Assembly: GCF_014252455.1 (NCBI RefSeq)
Contig: NZ_CP060245.1
Coordinates: forward strand, 345,690 to 409,689
DNA length: 64,000 bases
Source: Blattabacterium cuenoti
GTDB taxonomy: Bacteria > Bacteroidota > Bacteroidia > Flavobacteriales > Blattabacteriaceae
Direction: 5' to 3'
This document shows, one piece after another, positions 12,632-27,320 of this stretch (the stretch's first letter is position 1; each line of letters starts with the position of its first letter). The notes below the pieces were generated by a model, which saw only the letters and a program-made list of their open reading frames with translations, searched no databases and was not told where the DNA came from. The position numbers were made by a program, and so were the translations under genes.

Positions 12632-12984
12632 TGGGAAAAATTCTTTTAGAGAATATAAAATTATTTGGATTTCATGGATGTATGCCGGAAGAAACTTTTT
12701 TAGGATCTTATTATACAGTCAATTTAGAGGTCGAATTAGATCTTTATCCAGCTTCTATTAGTGATGATTTATCAAAAACTATTGATTATGTGCATTTATA
12801 TCATATTATAAAAGAAGAAATGGCTATTAATTCAAAATTATTAGAACATTTAGCTCAAAGAATAATTCAAAGAATTAAAAAATATAGAATAGATTTAATA
12901 AAATATACAAAAATAAAAATTTGTAAAGAAAATCCACCACTACAAAGTAGTGTAGATAGAATCTGTGTAGTTTTAGATGACTAG
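12631..12984 (+). CDS. folB: dihydroneopterin aldolase
   Basis: Cleaves 7,8-dihydroneopterin to 6-hydroxymethyl-dihydropterin and glycolaldehyde in folate synthesis. The 117-residue protein shows ENIKLFGFHGCMPEE at the N-terminus (active-site Glu segment), TIDYVHLYHII, LLEHLAQRI and a C-terminal lysine strand KIKICKENPP, in family order. It overlaps sodA by one base. The last base of its TAG stop is the first base of tRNA-Cys. Confidence 0.92.
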   Translation: MGKILLENIKLFGFHGCMPEETFLGSYYTVNLEVELDLYPASISDDLSKTIDYVHLYHIIKEEMAINSKLLEHLAQRIIQRIKKYRIDLIKYTKIKICKENPPLQSSVDRICVVLDD

Positions 12985-13054
12985 GCACTGTGGCCGATTG
13001 GAAAGGCAGAGGTCTGCAAAACCTTTTATAGCGGTTCGATTCCGCTCTGTGCCT
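12984..13054 (+). tRNA. tRNA-Cys (anticodon GCA)
   Basis: A 71-nt cloverleaf: acceptor GGCACTG/CTGTGCC with one T:T mismatch at the sixth pair, discriminator T (U73, a cysteine identity element), anticodon stem GAGGT/ACCTT with loop CTGCAAA (GCA), and T-loop TTCGATT. CCA is not encoded. G1 is shared with the folB stop codon. The 3' 29 nt are covered on the other strand by the end of the DUF4296-like frame. Confidence 0.95.
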
Positions 13055-13339
13055 CTAATTTTTTTAAATTGTTTTTTATCTTTTTTAAAAGATCAATATG
13101 ATTATCTATTTTTTTTAAATAATAAAAATAATTCAATATTAATTTATATTCTGTAATATTATATTTTTTATAAATTTCTTTTTTTTTTATTAAAAACAAT
13201 TTTTTCTTAAAAAATTGATGATAAATAAAAAGTTCTGTAATAATATTTATCATTTTATTTTTAGAAATTAATAAACTAATAGTTATTGTTTTTTCTGAAA
13301 AAAATAAAAAAAAAATAGTAAAAAAATAATTTTTTTCAT
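13026..13339 (-). pseudogene. DUF4296-like small exported protein gene, frameshifted
   Basis: The intact frame from 13253 down resembles Flavobacteriia DUF4296 proteins: SKNKMINIITELFIYHQ, then IYKKYNITEYKLILNYFYYLKK, ending in a basic coiled tail. Upstream the same frame is open but lacks an ATG. An ATG at 13339 opens a hydrophobic leader (MKKIIFLLFFFYFF) in another frame that stops 19 codons on. Adding one base in the T10 or T7 tract (complement of 13306-13315 and 13298-13304) fuses leader and body. The C-terminal residues AQSGIEPL are read from the antisense of tRNA-Cys, so the original stop is lost. It may be a pseudogene or a gene rescued by slippage. The family call is by eye. Confidence 0.55.
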
Positions 13340-20607: not shown

Positions 20608-22953
20608 GTGTATAAAAAAAAGAAAAAAATAAATTTTTATTTTCGTATACTTATTTTTTATTTTTGGTTTTTCTTTTTAATAGTACTTTTAACTTTTTTT
20701 ATAATTTTTTATGCAGCATATAAAGGTTATTTAGGATCTTTACCTAGTACTAAAGATATAGAAAATCCTATAATGGAAGTAGGATCCGAAATATATGATT
20801 ATAATGGTTTTTTATTAGGAAAATTTTTTTCAGAAAATAGAACTCTTATATCTTATAAAGAATTTCCCAAAAATCTTATTAATGCTTTATTATCCAAAGA
20901 AGATATTCGTTTTAAATATCATTCAGGTATTGATGCTAAATCTTTTTTAAGAGCTATTTTTTCTTTAGGAAAAAAAGGAGGGGGGAGTACTATTACTCAA
21001 CAATTAGCTAAATTACTTTTTACAGGAAAATCTGCTAAAAATAAATTACAAAGAATACATCAAAAATTATTAGAATGGGTAATGGCTATTGAATTAGAAA
21101 AACGTTATACAAAGGAAGAAATAATTACTATGTATTATAATAAATTCGATTTTTTATATAATGCAAAAGGAATAGAAACAGCGGCTCATACTTATTTTAA
21201 TAAAAAAACATCAAATCTAAATTTAGGAGAATGTGCCATTCTTGTGGGGATGTTAGAAAATCCTTCTTTATTTAATCCTAAATTATATCCTAATAGAGCA
21301 AAAAAACAAAGAAATTTAGTTTTATCACAAATGCAAAAATATCATTTTTTAACTAAAAAAATATATAATCAAGAATTAAAAAAACCTATAAAAATAAATT
21401 TTAAAATACAAAAAAAAGATTTTGAATTATTAACTTATTATAGTGATTTTTTAAAAAAAGAAATTCAAGAAGCATTAGATGATTACGAAAAAAAAACAGG
21501 GAAAAAACTAAATCTTTATTCTAGTGGATTAAAAATATATACATCAATTGATTTAAAAATGCAAGAATATGCAGAACAATCGATAAAAAAACATCTTAGT
21601 AAATTACAATTATTATTTAATAATTCTCAAAAAAAAAATAAAAATGCTCCATTTTTAAATATTTCTACAGAAAAAACTAATAGAATTATTTTATCTGCTA
21701 TGCATAGAACACAATTTTATCAAAATCTTAAAGAAAAAGGATATACAGAAGAAAAAATTATAAAACAATTTAAAAAACCACAAAATATCAAATTATTTAC
21801 TTGGAATGGATATAAAACTGTATCCATCTCACCATGGGATTTCATTCGTTATCAAAAAAGTATTATTCAAGGTGGAATGTTATCAATAGAACCTTATACA
21901 GGATATATAAAAGCATGGGTTGGAGGAATAGATTTTAATTATTTTCAATATGATCATGTAGCAAAAACACAACGTCAAGTAGGTTCAATTTTTAAACCGA
22001 TTCTATATGCCACAGCAATTAATGAATTACATTATAATCCTTGTACAAAAATTTCTAATGAAAAATTTCATTTAGGGACATGGAGTCCTAGAAATTCAAA
22101 TGGTAAATATGGAGGATATCTTACTTTAAAAGATGGATTAGCATTATCTGTCAATACTATTTCAGCTCGTCTTATATCAAAAATTACACCTGGACCAGTT
22201 ATTCATTTAGCTAAAAAAATGGGAATAGAATCCATAATTCCTGAACATCCATCTATAGCTTTAGGATCTGCAGATATCACTTTATATGAAATGACAGGTG
22301 CTTTTAATACATTTGCAAATTATGGATTTTATATTAAACCTACTATTTTAATAAAAATAGAAGATGAATATGGAAAATTAATTAAGGAACATACTGATAT
22401 CAGTAGAAGACAAGTTTTTAGTGAAGAAGTAGCATATATTATGTTAAAACTAATGCAAGGTGTAGTAGAATATGGAACTGCTAAAAGATTATTATATCAA
22501 TATAATTTTTTTAATATAGATATAGCAGGTAAAACAGGAACAACTAATGAAAATTCAGATGGATGGTTTATAGGAATAATTCCAAATTTAACTACTGGAG
22601 TTTGGGTAGGTTGGGAAGATCGATTTTCTCATTTTGTAAATATAAAATTAGGTCAAGGAGCTAATATGGCTTTGCCAATATGGGCTCATTATATGAAATA
22701 TTTATATAAAGATACGAATCTTAAATATCATAAAAATTTATTATTTAGAAAACCAAAAAATTATCAATCTAATTGGAATCATTGTGATGAAAATTATAAA
22801 AATAAAAATGCTTTAAAAGAAATTATAGATCTCAATGAAAATTTTAATGATGAAAATAATGAAAATTTTAATGATGAAAATAATGAAAATTTTAATGATG
22901 AAAATAATGAAAATTTTAATGATGAAAATAATGAAAAAAATTATGATAATTAA
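20608..22953 (+). CDS. class A penicillin-binding protein (bifunctional glycosyltransferase/transpeptidase)
   Basis: Polymerises and cross-links murein at the outer face of the inner membrane. It starts at GTG (no ATG fits), then one membrane helix at about residues 11-38. A GT51 domain follows with the catalytic Glu98 in SKEDIRFKYHSGID and GGGSTITQQLAK. The transpeptidase has Ser460 (SIFK), SVN from Ser514, and Lys642 (KTG). All active-site motifs are intact over 781 residues. The C-terminus is an asparagine/glutamate-rich tail encoded by four identical 24-bp repeats. It is preceded by ricT and followed 2 nt later by the serA-like gene. Confidence 0.94.
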   Translation: MYKKKKKINFYFRILIFYFWFFFLIVLLTFFIIFYAAYKGYLGSLPSTKDIENPIMEVGSEIYDYNGFLLGKFFSENRTLISYKEFPKNLINALLSKEDIRFKYHSGIDAKSFLRAIFSLGKKGGGSTITQQLAKLLFTGKSAKNKLQRIHQKLLEWVMAIELEKRYTKEEIITMYYNKFDFLYNAKGIETAAHTYFNKKTSNLNLGECAILVGMLENPSLFNPKLYPNRAKKQRNLVLSQMQKYHFLTKKIYNQELKKPIKINFKIQKKDFELLTYYSDFLKKEIQEALDDYEKKTGKKLNLYSSGLKIYTSIDLKMQEYAEQSIKKHLSKLQLLFNNSQKKNKNAPFLNISTEKTNRIILSAMHRTQFYQNLKEKGYTEEKIIKQFKKPQNIKLFTWNGYKTVSISPWDFIRYQKSIIQGGMLSIEPYTGYIKAWVGGIDFNYFQYDHVAKTQRQVGSIFKPILYATAINELHYNPCTKISNEKFHLGTWSPRNSNGKYGGYLTLKDGLALSVNTISARLISKITPGPVIHLAKKMGIESIIPEHPSIALGSADITLYEMTGAFNTFANYGFYIKPTILIKIEDEYGKLIKEHTDISRRQVFSEEVAYIMLKLMQGVVEYGTAKRLLYQYNFFNIDIAGKTGTTNENSDGWFIGIIPNLTTGVWVGWEDRFSHFVNIKLGQGANMALPIWAHYMKYLYKDTNLKYHKNLLFRKPKNYQSNWNHCDENYKNKNALKEIIDLNENFNDENNENFNDENNENFNDENNENFNDENNEKNYDN
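22834..22929 (+). repeat. four perfect 24-bp tandem repeats in the PBP C-terminus
   Basis: A 24-bp unit beginning AATGAAAATTTTAATGATG is repeated four times without a mismatch, and a partial fifth copy follows (22930-22936). The length is a multiple of three, so each copy adds eight residues (NENFNDEN). The identity of all copies points to recent slippage expansion or array homogenisation. Confidence 0.95.
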
Positions 22954-22955
22954 TT

Positions 22956-23942
22956 ATGAAAATTAAAAAAATTTTAATTTTAGATAAAAATCATCCTTTT
23001 ATTATATATAAATTAAAAAAAGAAGGATTTATTTGTCATGAAAATTATTTTGATCCTATAGAAAATATTTTATCAATTATATCTTTATATGATGGAATTA
23101 TTTTTAGAAGTAGATTTTCTATAAATAAAAAATTTATTCAAAAAGCAATAAATTTAAAATTTATTGCACGTATTGGATCTGGAATAGAACATATAGATAA
23201 AAATTATGCTTTAAAAAAAGGAATTAAAATAATCACTACTCCAGATGATAATAAAGATTCTGTTGCAGAACATGCTATAGGAATGCTTTTATCCATGATG
23301 AATCATATATTTCGTTCTCATCAAGAAATTCAAAAAGGAAAATGGAATAGAAAATCTAATCTAGGAATAGAAATTATGGGAAAAACAATAGGAATTATTG
23401 GATATGGACATACTGGAAAGGCTTTTGCTCAAAAATTATCAGGATTTAAAACTACAATATTTTGTTATGATATTATACCAAACAAAGGAGATATTTATGC
23501 AAAACAAGTAGATATGAAAACAATATTTTTGAAATCAGATATAATTAGTTTACATGTTCCTTATACTCATAAAACAAAAAAAATGATTAATAATAATTTT
23601 ATTAACAATTTTTGTAAACCTTTTTATTTTATTAATACATCTAGAGGAGAATGTGTTTTTACAGATCATTTAGTAAATGCCTTAAAAAATGGTAAAATAT
23701 ATGGAGCATGTTTAGATGTATTAGAATATGAAAAATCTTCTTTTGAAGATTTGTTTTTTTGTCCTAAAAAATATAAAACTTTTTTTTATTTGATTCATTC
23801 TAATAAAGTAATTTTAACTCCACATATAGCTGGATGGACTAAAGAATCTAAATATAAAATGGCTAAAAAAATTGTAAAAAAAATTATCAATTTTAATAAA
23901 CATCTTTTAAATATCTACCTTCTTGTTTCATTTTTTTTATAA
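22956..23942 (+). CDS. serA: D-3-phosphoglycerate dehydrogenase-like 2-hydroxyacid dehydrogenase
   Basis: Probably oxidises 3-phosphoglycerate to 3-phosphohydroxypyruvate, the first step to serine, which feeds cysE. The 328-residue protein has ARIGSGIEHID, an NAD loop GIIGYGHTGKAFA, and the catalytic triad Arg (NTSRGE), Glu (LDVLEYE) and His (TPHIAG). The regulatory ACT domain of longer SerA forms is missing. The last roughly 15 residues (NKHLLNIYLLVSFFL) look like run-on, because the frame continues 50 nt into the convergent cysJ end before reaching a stop. A different hydroxyacid substrate cannot be excluded. Confidence 0.85.
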   Translation: MKIKKILILDKNHPFIIYKLKKEGFICHENYFDPIENILSIISLYDGIIFRSRFSINKKFIQKAINLKFIARIGSGIEHIDKNYALKKGIKIITTPDDNKDSVAEHAIGMLLSMMNHIFRSHQEIQKGKWNRKSNLGIEIMGKTIGIIGYGHTGKAFAQKLSGFKTTIFCYDIIPNKGDIYAKQVDMKTIFLKSDIISLHVPYTHKTKKMINNNFINNFCKPFYFINTSRGECVFTDHLVNALKNGKIYGACLDVLEYEKSSFEDLFFCPKKYKTFFYLIHSNKVILTPHIAGWTKESKYKMAKKIVKKIINFNKHLLNIYLLVSFFL

Positions 23943-24939
23943 ATAAAATCGGAGAAACTTTTCCTATTATTTCTATTATTCGATATATAGTATTTTCTAC
24001 ATCTATACTCATAGGTTTTTTTTTCCCACATATATATATATATGCGCCTTTTTGTATCCAAAAAAAAAATTCTTTTCTATTTTCCCATATTTTATGTTGT
24101 ATATATATTTTTTTTTTATTATCTCTAGAAAAAGCAACATCTACACGATATAGGATCCTATTTTTTTCCCATCTTTTAATTTCATTATGATATAAAAAAT
24201 CATTCAAAAAATACTGATTTCCAAAAAAAAGCCAATTTTTTCCTGTTGCTTGCATTATTTCTCTTTCATATAAAAAAGAACGAAAAGGAGCTATACCTGT
24301 CCCTGTTCCAATAAGAATTATATCCTTATTATTTTCTGGCAATTTAAATACATGGTTTTTTTTAATAGAAAAAGAGATTTTATCTCCTATTTTTAACTGA
24401 GAAAGAAAATTAGAACAAAAACCATATTTAATTTTTTCATTAATTTTAAATTGATGACGTGATATTGTAATATGTATTAAATTATTATGAACTCTATGAG
24501 AAGAAGAAATAGAATATAATCTAGGTTTTATAGGATCCATAATTTTAATTAAATTATATAAATAATTTATATTATTAGGAATAGGATATCTTTTCAAAAG
24601 ATTTAATAAATCCCAATTATATTTATGAAAAAAAATATTTTTTTTTATTAAAAAAGAATATTTTTTTAACATTTTGAATGATAAAAAAATAATATTTAAT
24701 TTTTTTTTTAATAAAAAAAATATTTTTTTTTTATATGCATAATCATTAAATAAAATTTTTTGAAAAAAATTAATAATTGCATTAACCATAAATGAAGAAT
24801 TTTCAGCTTTTATAGCTATAGAATCTCCTGGAGAATAATCTATTTTATTATTATTTTTTATTTCAATATGATATATTTCTTTATTATATCCTTTTTTTTT
24901 TTTATTTAATAATTTTTTATTTATAATGATTCCATTAAT
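23893..24939 (-). pseudogene. cysJ: sulfite reductase flavoprotein CysJ, FAD/NADPH part (second frame of a split gene)
   Basis: This is the reductase half of NADPH-sulfite reductase flavoprotein: YHIEIKNNNKIDYSPGDSIAIKAEN, FAD motif RLYSISSS, NADPH loop GTGTGIAPFRSFL, WLFFGNQYFLNDFLY and the terminal GRYLKDVY. It has no start codon at its true beginning; the first ATG (24789) falls inside the FAD-binding domain. Its frame joins the flavodoxin half if one base is added in an A11 run (24939-24949), giving 550 residues overall, close to family length. It overlaps the convergent serA-like gene by 50 nt. All reductase motifs remain, so selection probably still acts on it. Confidence 0.85.
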
Positions 24940-25544
24940 TTTTTTTTTTCTTCTATGTTAATGTCTAGTTTAAAAAAAGTGAATATTTTAATAAACCAAT
25001 CATCTGCCTTTTTTTTAAAATCTGTTACATCACATTTATATAATGGTATTATTCTACTAGCTCCTAGTTTATATAACCGTTTATCAATATCTTCTCCAGC
25101 TTTACAAAAAAAAGTATAAGAACGATCACCTAATGCTAAAACACTATATTTTATATTTTTTAAATTAAGATTTTTTTCTTTATGAATAAAATTAAAAAAT
25201 GATTTAGCAGATGAAGGAGGTTCTCCTTCACCATGTGTACTAATAATAATAAAAAAATAATTTTCATTTTTTAAATCTATTAAATTATATAGATCTAAAT
25301 CAATCAATTTAATATTTAATTTTTTTTCTTTAGCTTTTTTAATCATAGAAAAAGCTAAATTTTTAGAATTTCCTGATACTGTACTATAAACTAATGTTAT
25401 TTTATAATTAAAATTATTTTTTATTTTTTTTTTATAATATATAGATAATATTCCAGACATATATCCAGACATCCAAATAATTTCTTCTACAGTAGAAGAT
25501 TTAATTAAATTAACAAAATTTTTTTTATTCAATTCAGATAACAT
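24921..25544 (-). CDS. cysJ: sulfite reductase flavoprotein CysJ, flavodoxin part (first frame of a split gene)
   Basis: CysJ passes electrons from NADPH via FAD and FMN to the CysI haemoprotein, which reduces sulfite to sulfide. The 207-residue frame carries the FMN-binding flavodoxin domain: TLVYSTVSGNSKNLA (phosphate loop), STHGEGEPPSSAKSF and LALGDRSYTFFCKAGEDIDKRL. It ends prematurely at TAA 24921-24923, shortly after an A11 tract. With a +1 slip there, translation continues as NGIIINKKLLN into the reductase half. It lies 23 nt after cysK on the same strand, and cysE is further upstream, so sulfite reduction, serine acetylation and cysteine synthesis share one operon. cysI is not in this window. 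Confidence 0.9.
   Translation of the reverse strand: MLSELNKKNFVNLIKSSTVEEIIWMSGYMSGILSIYYKKKIKNNFNYKITLVYSTVSGNSKNLAFSMIKKAKEKKLNIKLIDLDLYNLIDLKNENYFFIIISTHGEGEPPSSAKSFFNFIHKEKNLNLKNIKYSVLALGDRSYTFFCKAGEDIDKRLYKLGASRIIPLYKCDVTDFKKKADDWFIKIFTFFKLDINIEEKKKLMESL
24939..24949 (-). other. A11 homopolymer at the cysJ frame junction (candidate slippage site)
   Basis: The coding strand has GAAG followed by ten more A then TTAATGG, eleven consecutive A in total. Reading it as twelve A joins the flavodoxin frame to the FAD/NADPH frame exactly. RNA-polymerase slippage on poly(A) tracts has been described as rescuing split genes in AT-rich insect symbionts, so the site may be functional. A sequencing error or a true null mutation would look identical. 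Confidence 0.7.
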
Positions 25545-25567: not shown

Positions 25568-26479
25568 TTATAAAAAAAGATTATCTACGGATAGATATCT
25601 TTCTCCAGAATCATAATTAAATGTTAAAATTGTAGAATTTTCAGGAAAATTAGATAATTGTTTATCTATTGTAGATAAAACTGCTCCTGTAGAAATTCCG
25701 ACTAATATTCCTTCTTTTTTTGCTGTTTTACGAACAAATTTAAATGCTTCTTTTTTAGTAACTAAGAAAGTTCCATCTAAAATTTGAACATTCAATATTG
25801 ATGGAATAAACCCTGCACCTAACCCTTGTAATGAATGTGGATGAGGATCCCCACCAAAAATTACTGGAGATTCTATAGGTTCCACAGAAAATATTTTTAT
25901 TTTTGGAAATTTTTTTTTTAAAATTTCTCCTATTCCAGTAATATGTCCGCCAGTTCCAACTCCAGTGATAAAATAATCAATTCCTTCAGGAAAATATTTT
26001 ATAATTTCTTTAGCTGTAGTATTTCTATGTATTTTAACATTAGACATATTGTCAAATTGTTTAGGCATCCATGAATTAGGAATTTTTTTCATTAATTTTT
26101 CTGCTTTTTCTATCGCACCTTTCATTCCTTTTTCTTTAGGTGTAAGTATATATTTTGCTCCATAAATAGAAAAAAGTTTTCTTCTTTCAATGCTCATAGA
26201 TTCAGGCATTACTAAAATTAAACGATATCCTTTGACAGTGCTTACCATTGCTAAACCTACTCCAGTATTTCCAGAGGTAGGTTCTATAATAGTATCTCCT
26301 TTTTTAATAATTTTTTTTTTTTCTGCATCTTCTATCATTGATAATGCTATTCTATCTTTGATACTACCTCCTGGATTATTTCTTTCTAATTTTATCCATA
26401 TATTATGATATGGAAATAAACGACGAAGACATATATGAGGAGTATTTCCAATAGTATCTAATATACACTCTACTTTCAT
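25568..26479 (-). CDS. cysK: cysteine synthase (O-acetylserine sulfhydrylase)
   Basis: A PLP enzyme that makes cysteine from O-acetylserine and sulfide. The 303-residue protein has GNTPHICL, the PLP lysine Lys41 in GGSIKDR, the phosphate-binding [17 protein letters not shown] and a late [11 protein letters not shown]-like tail ([14 protein letters not shown]). It sits directly downstream of cysE (7 nt) and upstream of cysJ, matching the order of substrate supply. No riboswitch or operator is visible upstream. Confidence 0.96.
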
Positions 26480-26486
26480 ATTTTTT

Positions 26487-27320
26487 TTATATCATATAAT
26501 TAATAGGATCAGGAAATGGATTATTATCCCTCATTTTTATTTCATTTTTTTGATATACTATAGAAAAAGGAGGAATACTATGTGTGACCCATACATTTCC
26601 TCCAATAACACTATCATGTCCAATAATAGTCTCTCCTCCTAATATAGTTGCTCCAGCATAAATAGTAACTTTATTTTCTATAGTAGGATGACGTTTTTTA
26701 TTAGCTAATTTTTTAGATACATGTATCGCCCCTAAAGTCACTCCTTGATATATTTTTACTTTATCTCCTATTTTTGTACTAGATCCAATAACGATTCCAG
26801 TTCCATGATCTATAACAAAAGATTTTCCAATTTTTGCTTCAGAATGAATATCAATTCCAGTTTTACTATGAGCATATTCAGTAATTAATCTTGGAAAAAT
26901 TGGTATTTTTAATAAACTAAGTTGATGAGCTATTCTATATAAAGCAGTAGCAAAAAAACCAGGATAAGATAAAAAAATTTCTTCTATAACTTTTGCTGCA
27001 GGATCAAAATTTAATATAGCATTAGCATCTATAATTAATATTTTATAAATAATAGGAATTTTATTAAAAAATATTTTTACAAATTTTTTTGATTCTTTTT
27101 CTTCAATATTTAGTTCTAAAAAAATAGAATATAATTTATTTTTTAAATTTTGATAAACTTTATTTAATAAATTTTTATTTTTTAATAATATTTTATCTGG
27201 AGTAAAAAGTAAATAAAATAAATCTTCTATAAATTTTTCATATATCTTTTTTTTTATAAAAGAATAACCGCCTTTTGTATTATTATAATATAATTTTTTT
27301 ATAAAATTGACATCAGACAT
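26487..27320 (-). CDS. cysE: serine O-acetyltransferase (EpsC/CysE type)
   Basis: Acetylates serine with acetyl-CoA, committing it to cysteine. The 277-residue protein has a helical N-terminal half and a left-handed beta-helix of hexapeptide repeats: [36 protein letters not shown] (active-site His in HGTG and GAIH region), [21 protein letters not shown] and ending [11 protein letters not shown]. First gene of the cysE-cysK-cysJ unit, divergent from icd. A minus-strand TATTTTTG at 27390-27383 fits a -7 element, without a clear -33 partner. Confidence 0.93.

Follow-up and report, generated by a model that had tools for sequence, protein, structure and literature searches.

A cysJ gene split at a poly(A) tract in Blattabacterium may still supply an NADPH-dependent reductase

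Results

We analyzed a 64-kb window of DNA from a Blattabacterium genome, labeled G000, that consists of a single contig of 608,467 bases (608 kb). The gene cysJ lies on the minus strand of the window at positions 25544 to 23893 and is divided between two frames. The 5' half is an open reading frame of 207 aa for the flavodoxin (FMN) domain (24921 to 25544, minus strand), ending in ...IEEKKKLMESL with its stop at 24921. The 3' half is an open frame for an FAD/NADPH (FNR-like) reductase (23893 to 24957, minus strand) that starts HRRKKKINGIIINKKLLNKKKKGYNKEIYHIEI and whose first ATG is at position 24789 (24787 to 24789, minus strand). The frame changes in the interdomain linker at a run of 11 A (24939 to 24949, minus strand), where the preliminary description had placed it, and we read the run directly as T11 on the plus strand. 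Judged by tblastn frames, the tract needs one more A for the halves to share a frame; a second long linker tract, A12 (24892 to 24903, minus strand), is in frame with the reductase half. Adding one A fuses the halves into 551 codons, or 550 aa, with the peptide IEEKKKKINGII across the junction. In the DNA as it stands, one continuous CysJ polypeptide is attainable only via recoding. A one-base change in a homopolymer of at least nine bases restores the frame and the remainder of the gene is undamaged, which is the DNA pattern by which slippage rescue is recognized.

Directly upstream of cysJ are cysK (25568 to 26479, minus strand) and cysE (26487 to 27320, minus strand; 75% identical to its G030 ortholog), both full open reading frames, as the preliminary description had stated. 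Of the 49 genomes compared, 48 have cysK in one uninterrupted frame and the remaining one lacks it at the locus; in G006 the fused CysJ is intact though cysK and cysE are both absent from the locus. On the other side, a serA-like dehydrogenase gene (22956 to 23942, plus strand) overlaps the 3' end of cysJ tail to tail by 50 bases (23893 to 23942) in this genome without cysI. In the cysI-positive genome G030, cysI sits between the serA-like gene and cysJ. Further along the window (22834 to 22937), a 24-base repeat (ENFNDENN) occurs in about 4.3 perfect copies at the 3' end of a penicillin-binding-protein gene.

The two halves together account for both domains of a CysJ. They match complementary parts of the cysJ model TIGR01931, the flavodoxin half at profile positions 11 to 209 and the ATG-to-stop part of the reductase half at positions 354 to 597, and neither alone reaches the whole-protein cut-off. 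This agrees with the earlier claim that a run of twelve A would join the halves into a single protein of 550 residues. The flavodoxin half also matches PF00258, and the reductase half matches PF00667 and PF00175. An AlphaFold2 model of the reductase half (pLDDT 85) has 6efv, 9c91, and 1ddg as its best Foldseek matches, with a probability of 1.00 to the FAD domains of CysJ and P450 reductase; 1ddg is also the top PDB sequence match. The half thus resembles CysJ (SiR-FP; TIGR01931; 6efv, 1ddg), its best PDB matches being CysJ structures, whereas the G000 gene differs from that system in lacking the partner CysI and in occupying two frames, and eight relatives lack the flavodoxin half altogether. 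It also contains the complete FAD-binding and NADPH-binding module of the plant-type FNR fold, the same module found in plant-type FNRs and in isolated FAD/NADPH domains of diflavin reductases. Compared with plant-type FNRs, it has a longer, CysJ-type FAD region and scores best as cysJ: the NCBIfam PetH FNR models match it with lower scores than the cysJ model. The isolated FAD/NADPH domain of CysJ folds by itself (1ddg). Work on the E. coli SiR flavoprotein is cited in PMC3509625.

The metabolic context of this CysJ is reduced. We found no cysI in the G000 genome and no PAPS_reduct proteins, and therefore neither CysH nor CysD, so that every partner looked for in sulfite reduction is absent. 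The preliminary description had proposed that a dead cysJ would end sulfite reduction and the supply of sulfide for CysK; that consequence falls away, as the pathway is already missing and the split in cysJ therefore cannot decide sulfide production. We accordingly ruled out sulfite reduction as the role at stake, and infer that the G000 CysJ no longer serves it. Among 49 Blattabacterium genomes (G000 and 48 relatives), CysI is intact in 8, and CysH and CysD are intact in the same 8. The absence of sulfate assimilation from some Blattabacterium has been published (PMC6039017 and PMC3287516). According to PMC3287516, strain BPLAN retains an isolated cysJ, like G000 without cysI; there the reaction was dropped from the metabolic model as isolated, and no function is proposed in the passages concerned. 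In another genome, G060, the matches to cysH and cysD are full of stops, cysI was undetected, and the N-terminal part of cysJ has frame damage within TTCAAAAAAA repeats.

We next compared the two halves across the 49 genomes. The reductase half is recognizable in all 49 and frame-intact in 48, of which 40 have no intact cysI. PF00175 has a single match per genome in 49/49, always in CysJ, making this the only plant-type FNR module found, in a count that covers plant-type modules and places type-2 (TrxB-like) ferredoxin reductases outside it. PF00258 matched only in CysJ, in 41/49 genomes. The flavodoxin half is missing in the other eight (G007, G024, G026, G033, G036, G014, G020, and G063), and in these the gene after cysK encodes a reductase alone. 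About five losses are implied by the tree, and a single origin is rejected by the AU test (p = 0.003; 0.011 with G000 included). G000 itself clusters with the flavodoxin-less G033 and G036 (UFBoot 95). In G026, which is missing the flavodoxin half, a run of nine A inside the reductase half carries a frameshift. This is either a further candidate for slippage or a genuine loss of the last FNR, in which case that genome might do without the reductase. Downstream near cysJ, G063 has a long tandem repeat region that is open in two frames (FNSLFILSSV repeats).

On these sequence comparisons, the flavodoxin half appears to be expendable in the genus and the reductase half does not. Many genomes without cysI nonetheless retain an apparently constrained flavodoxin half, which therefore has some use too. 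Damage to the flavodoxin half was not significantly associated with the absence of cysI (12/41 versus 0/8, p = 0.086, with relatedness ignored), and this half showed no significant relaxation once cysI had been lost (median branch ratios of 1.14 and 0.79, p = 0.09). In a literature search that fell short of most subscription papers, we saw no prior account of a reductase half retained across the genus while the flavodoxin half was repeatedly lost. Poly(A) slippage and orphan cysJ are themselves already known.

Beyond the tract, neither half of the G000 gene is damaged, as had been claimed. Conserved columns are kept at 45 of 47 positions in the flavodoxin half and 97 of 99 in the reductase half, compared with about 98% in leave-one-out controls. 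Two changes fall in the FMN loop (YSTVSGNSKNLA versus YGTETGNAKNLA). With a terminal-branch N/C ratio of 0.81, the flavodoxin half shows neither acceleration nor relaxation on the branch leading to G000, and the 56 codons ahead of the first ATG in the reductase frame are conserved like those of intact genes.

The linker emerged as the recurrent site of splitting. The halves lie in different frames in three genomes, G000, G010, and G068, each time at linker poly-A (A11, A10, and A14, respectively), and in each the reductase half is offset from the flavodoxin half in the same direction. Comparison with the 48 relatives, of the kind that the preliminary description had called for, shows sulfite reduction, the textbook job of CysJ, already gone and the reductase half kept. 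Splits concentrate in the linker because 27 of the 31 runs of at least 11 A/T sit there; tract length alone accounts for the clustering, and selection is not needed to explain it.

The same tract length raises the question of whether the split is real. The chromosome could truly carry A12, or a mixture, with cysJ one intact gene and the A11 an assembly error or minority allele. A run of 11 A is of error-prone length, both halves appear fully constrained, and the three splits in the genus all fall at the longest tracts of the gene. We therefore audited A/T runs of at least 10 inside the genes of the 64-kb window that could be aligned to G030 orthologs. Only 1 or 2 of about 50 such runs are off frame, a rarity that itself would suit an isolated error at cysJ, whereas the approximately 50 other runs of 10 to 14 are in frame. 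Because nearly all audited runs are in frame, a systematic homopolymer problem is unlikely, and the error would have to be a single miscall at A11. Against such a miscall, cysK is frameshift-free in 48 genomes and two other genomes, from different parts of the tree, also have their split in this linker. Taken together, we regard an intact chromosomal gene as unlikely. Besides cysJ, only one small gene among the audited runs shows a frame change (12977 to 13339, minus strand). It aligns in two frames to its G030 ortholog of 123 aa, and the frame seems to change near a T10 run (13306 to 13315) in the signal-peptide region, making it a second homopolymer frameshift candidate.

If the split is real, the gene could have been inactivated very recently, with no useful reductase made and decay yet to show. 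In endosymbionts, frameshifts in poly-A are seen as initial steps toward the loss of a gene (PMC3017870), and the pathway that CysJ served is already gone. A flavodoxin half evolving neutrally would probably remain without stops for no more than about 0.05 substitutions per site (P = 0.13 to 0.19 at 0.05), so an unrescued split must be young. Because both halves are undecayed and this neutral stop-free span is short, either the split is recent or its product is still made. The nearest relatives are only about 57 to 66% identical to G000 in the reductase half, so that a very recent frameshift looks the same as a rescued one. Synonymous sites are expected to be saturated, and all known sisters are too distant for the split to be dated. 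Weighing against inactivation is the genus-wide record of the reductase half, kept in frame in 48 of the 49 genomes that have it, even where no intact cysI remains. We consider recent inactivation less likely still than an error at the tract.

We then asked how a whole reductase could be made from the split gene. In G000, no ATG, GTG, or TTG precedes the FAD domain in the reductase frame; by comparison, all seven flavodoxin-less genes with an intact frame have an ATG ahead of that domain, and so do the split genes of G010 and G068, in which the ATG is in the frame of the reductase and precedes the tract (ATGGTTTT). Since G000 has no canonical start there, a whole reductase would most naturally come from slippage or some other recoding. 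The reductase half could instead be translated separately, as a second protein, from the ATT, ATC, or ATA codons just after the A run or from the ATG at 24789. The stand-alone reductases of seven relatives, each with its own ATG, and the upstream ATG of G010 and G068 are consistent with such an arrangement. However, in the AlphaFold2 model the FAD-domain strands at residues 7 to 16, 26 to 34, and 46 to 49 precede residue 57, so that a start at 24789 would remove the first three strands of the domain, a stretch that is conserved nevertheless. With that start too late and no ATG ahead, what remains is recoding at A11 or initiation at ATT, ATC, or ATA, and we judge separate translation to be improbable.

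Poly(A) slippage by RNA polymerase in insect endosymbionts restores 12 to 50% of transcripts (summarized in PMC5009743), and slippage candidates in Blochmannia include visC with A11 (PMC3017870). The G000 gene resembles the Buchnera and Blochmannia frameshifts (PMC5009743, PMC3017870) in having a one-base change in a long A tract of an otherwise undamaged gene, and resembles visC of B. vafer in particular in the indel within an A11 tract (PMC3017870). In contrast to those cases, its tract lies exactly at a domain boundary, its relatives lose a domain there, and it is known from DNA alone. Slippage by RNA polymerase would be the simplest route to the G000 reductase. The least probable route is that -1 ribosomal frameshifting, and not polymerase slippage, joins the frames: a shift of -1 at A AAA AAA is what is required, and the three split genomes agree in the relative frame of the reductase half, but chance alone would put three cases in the same direction one time in four, and no RNA structure downstream of A11 is clearly beyond chance (z = -1.2 and -1.9), which weighs against programmed -1 frameshifting and not against slippage.

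Discussion

The reading that we favor, and to which we give an even chance, is that CysJ, freed from sulfite reduction, acts as an NADPH reductase, and that the G000 gene was split by a poly-A indel while recoding still yields the reductase. The FAD/NADPH half would have been retained as the NADPH-dependent reductase of the cell after sulfite reduction ended. The Lys-rich linker would gather long A runs and so become an indel hot spot, and a one-base change in length at the G000 linker poly-A would have severed the halves. At A11, slippage by RNA polymerase may give some transcripts with A12 (or A9), perhaps with help from ribosomes that slip by -1 on A AAA AAA; the output would be fused CysJ and surplus free flavodoxin domain. 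G000 would then resemble an early step toward the stand-alone reductase of its nearest relatives, G033 and G036.

We considered which electron acceptors such a reductase could serve. A YfhL-type 2[4Fe-4S] ferredoxin is present in G000 and in 13/13 tested relatives, all eight flavodoxin-less genomes among them. The radical-SAM enzymes LipA, MiaB, and MtaB are present in G000, and every genome has 3 or 4 radical-SAM matches. Radical-SAM enzymes require low-potential electrons. This co-presence points to NADPH-ferredoxin reductase as the most likely second function of CysJ, and the likeliest clients would be the YfhL-type ferredoxin, passing electrons to LipA, MiaB, and MtaB, or else free flavin. 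IspG of the MEP pathway was ruled out as a client (0/49 genomes). We also rejected a 2Fe-2S ferredoxin as the partner: the sole Fer2 match in each genome is in an open reading frame of about 255 aa, which by its size is probably SdhB-like.

Extended to the genus, and more tentatively, the freed CysJ may be a general NADPH-to-ferredoxin (or flavin) reductase that has been trimmed repeatedly to a stand-alone FNR by linker deletion or frame splitting, with G000 as an intermediate in which slippage would give the fused enzyme plus a free flavodoxin domain. Orphan cysJ has so far been treated as the leftover of a lost pathway. That the reductase half persists in every genome, while its partner and its own flavodoxin half are repeatedly lost, is evidence for a second function. 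The CysJ reductase becomes a candidate for the sole source of the electrons with which a minimal cell makes lipoate and modifies its tRNA, and the fused, frame-split, and stand-alone forms of cysJ offer a natural series in which to see how slippage may cushion the loss of a domain.
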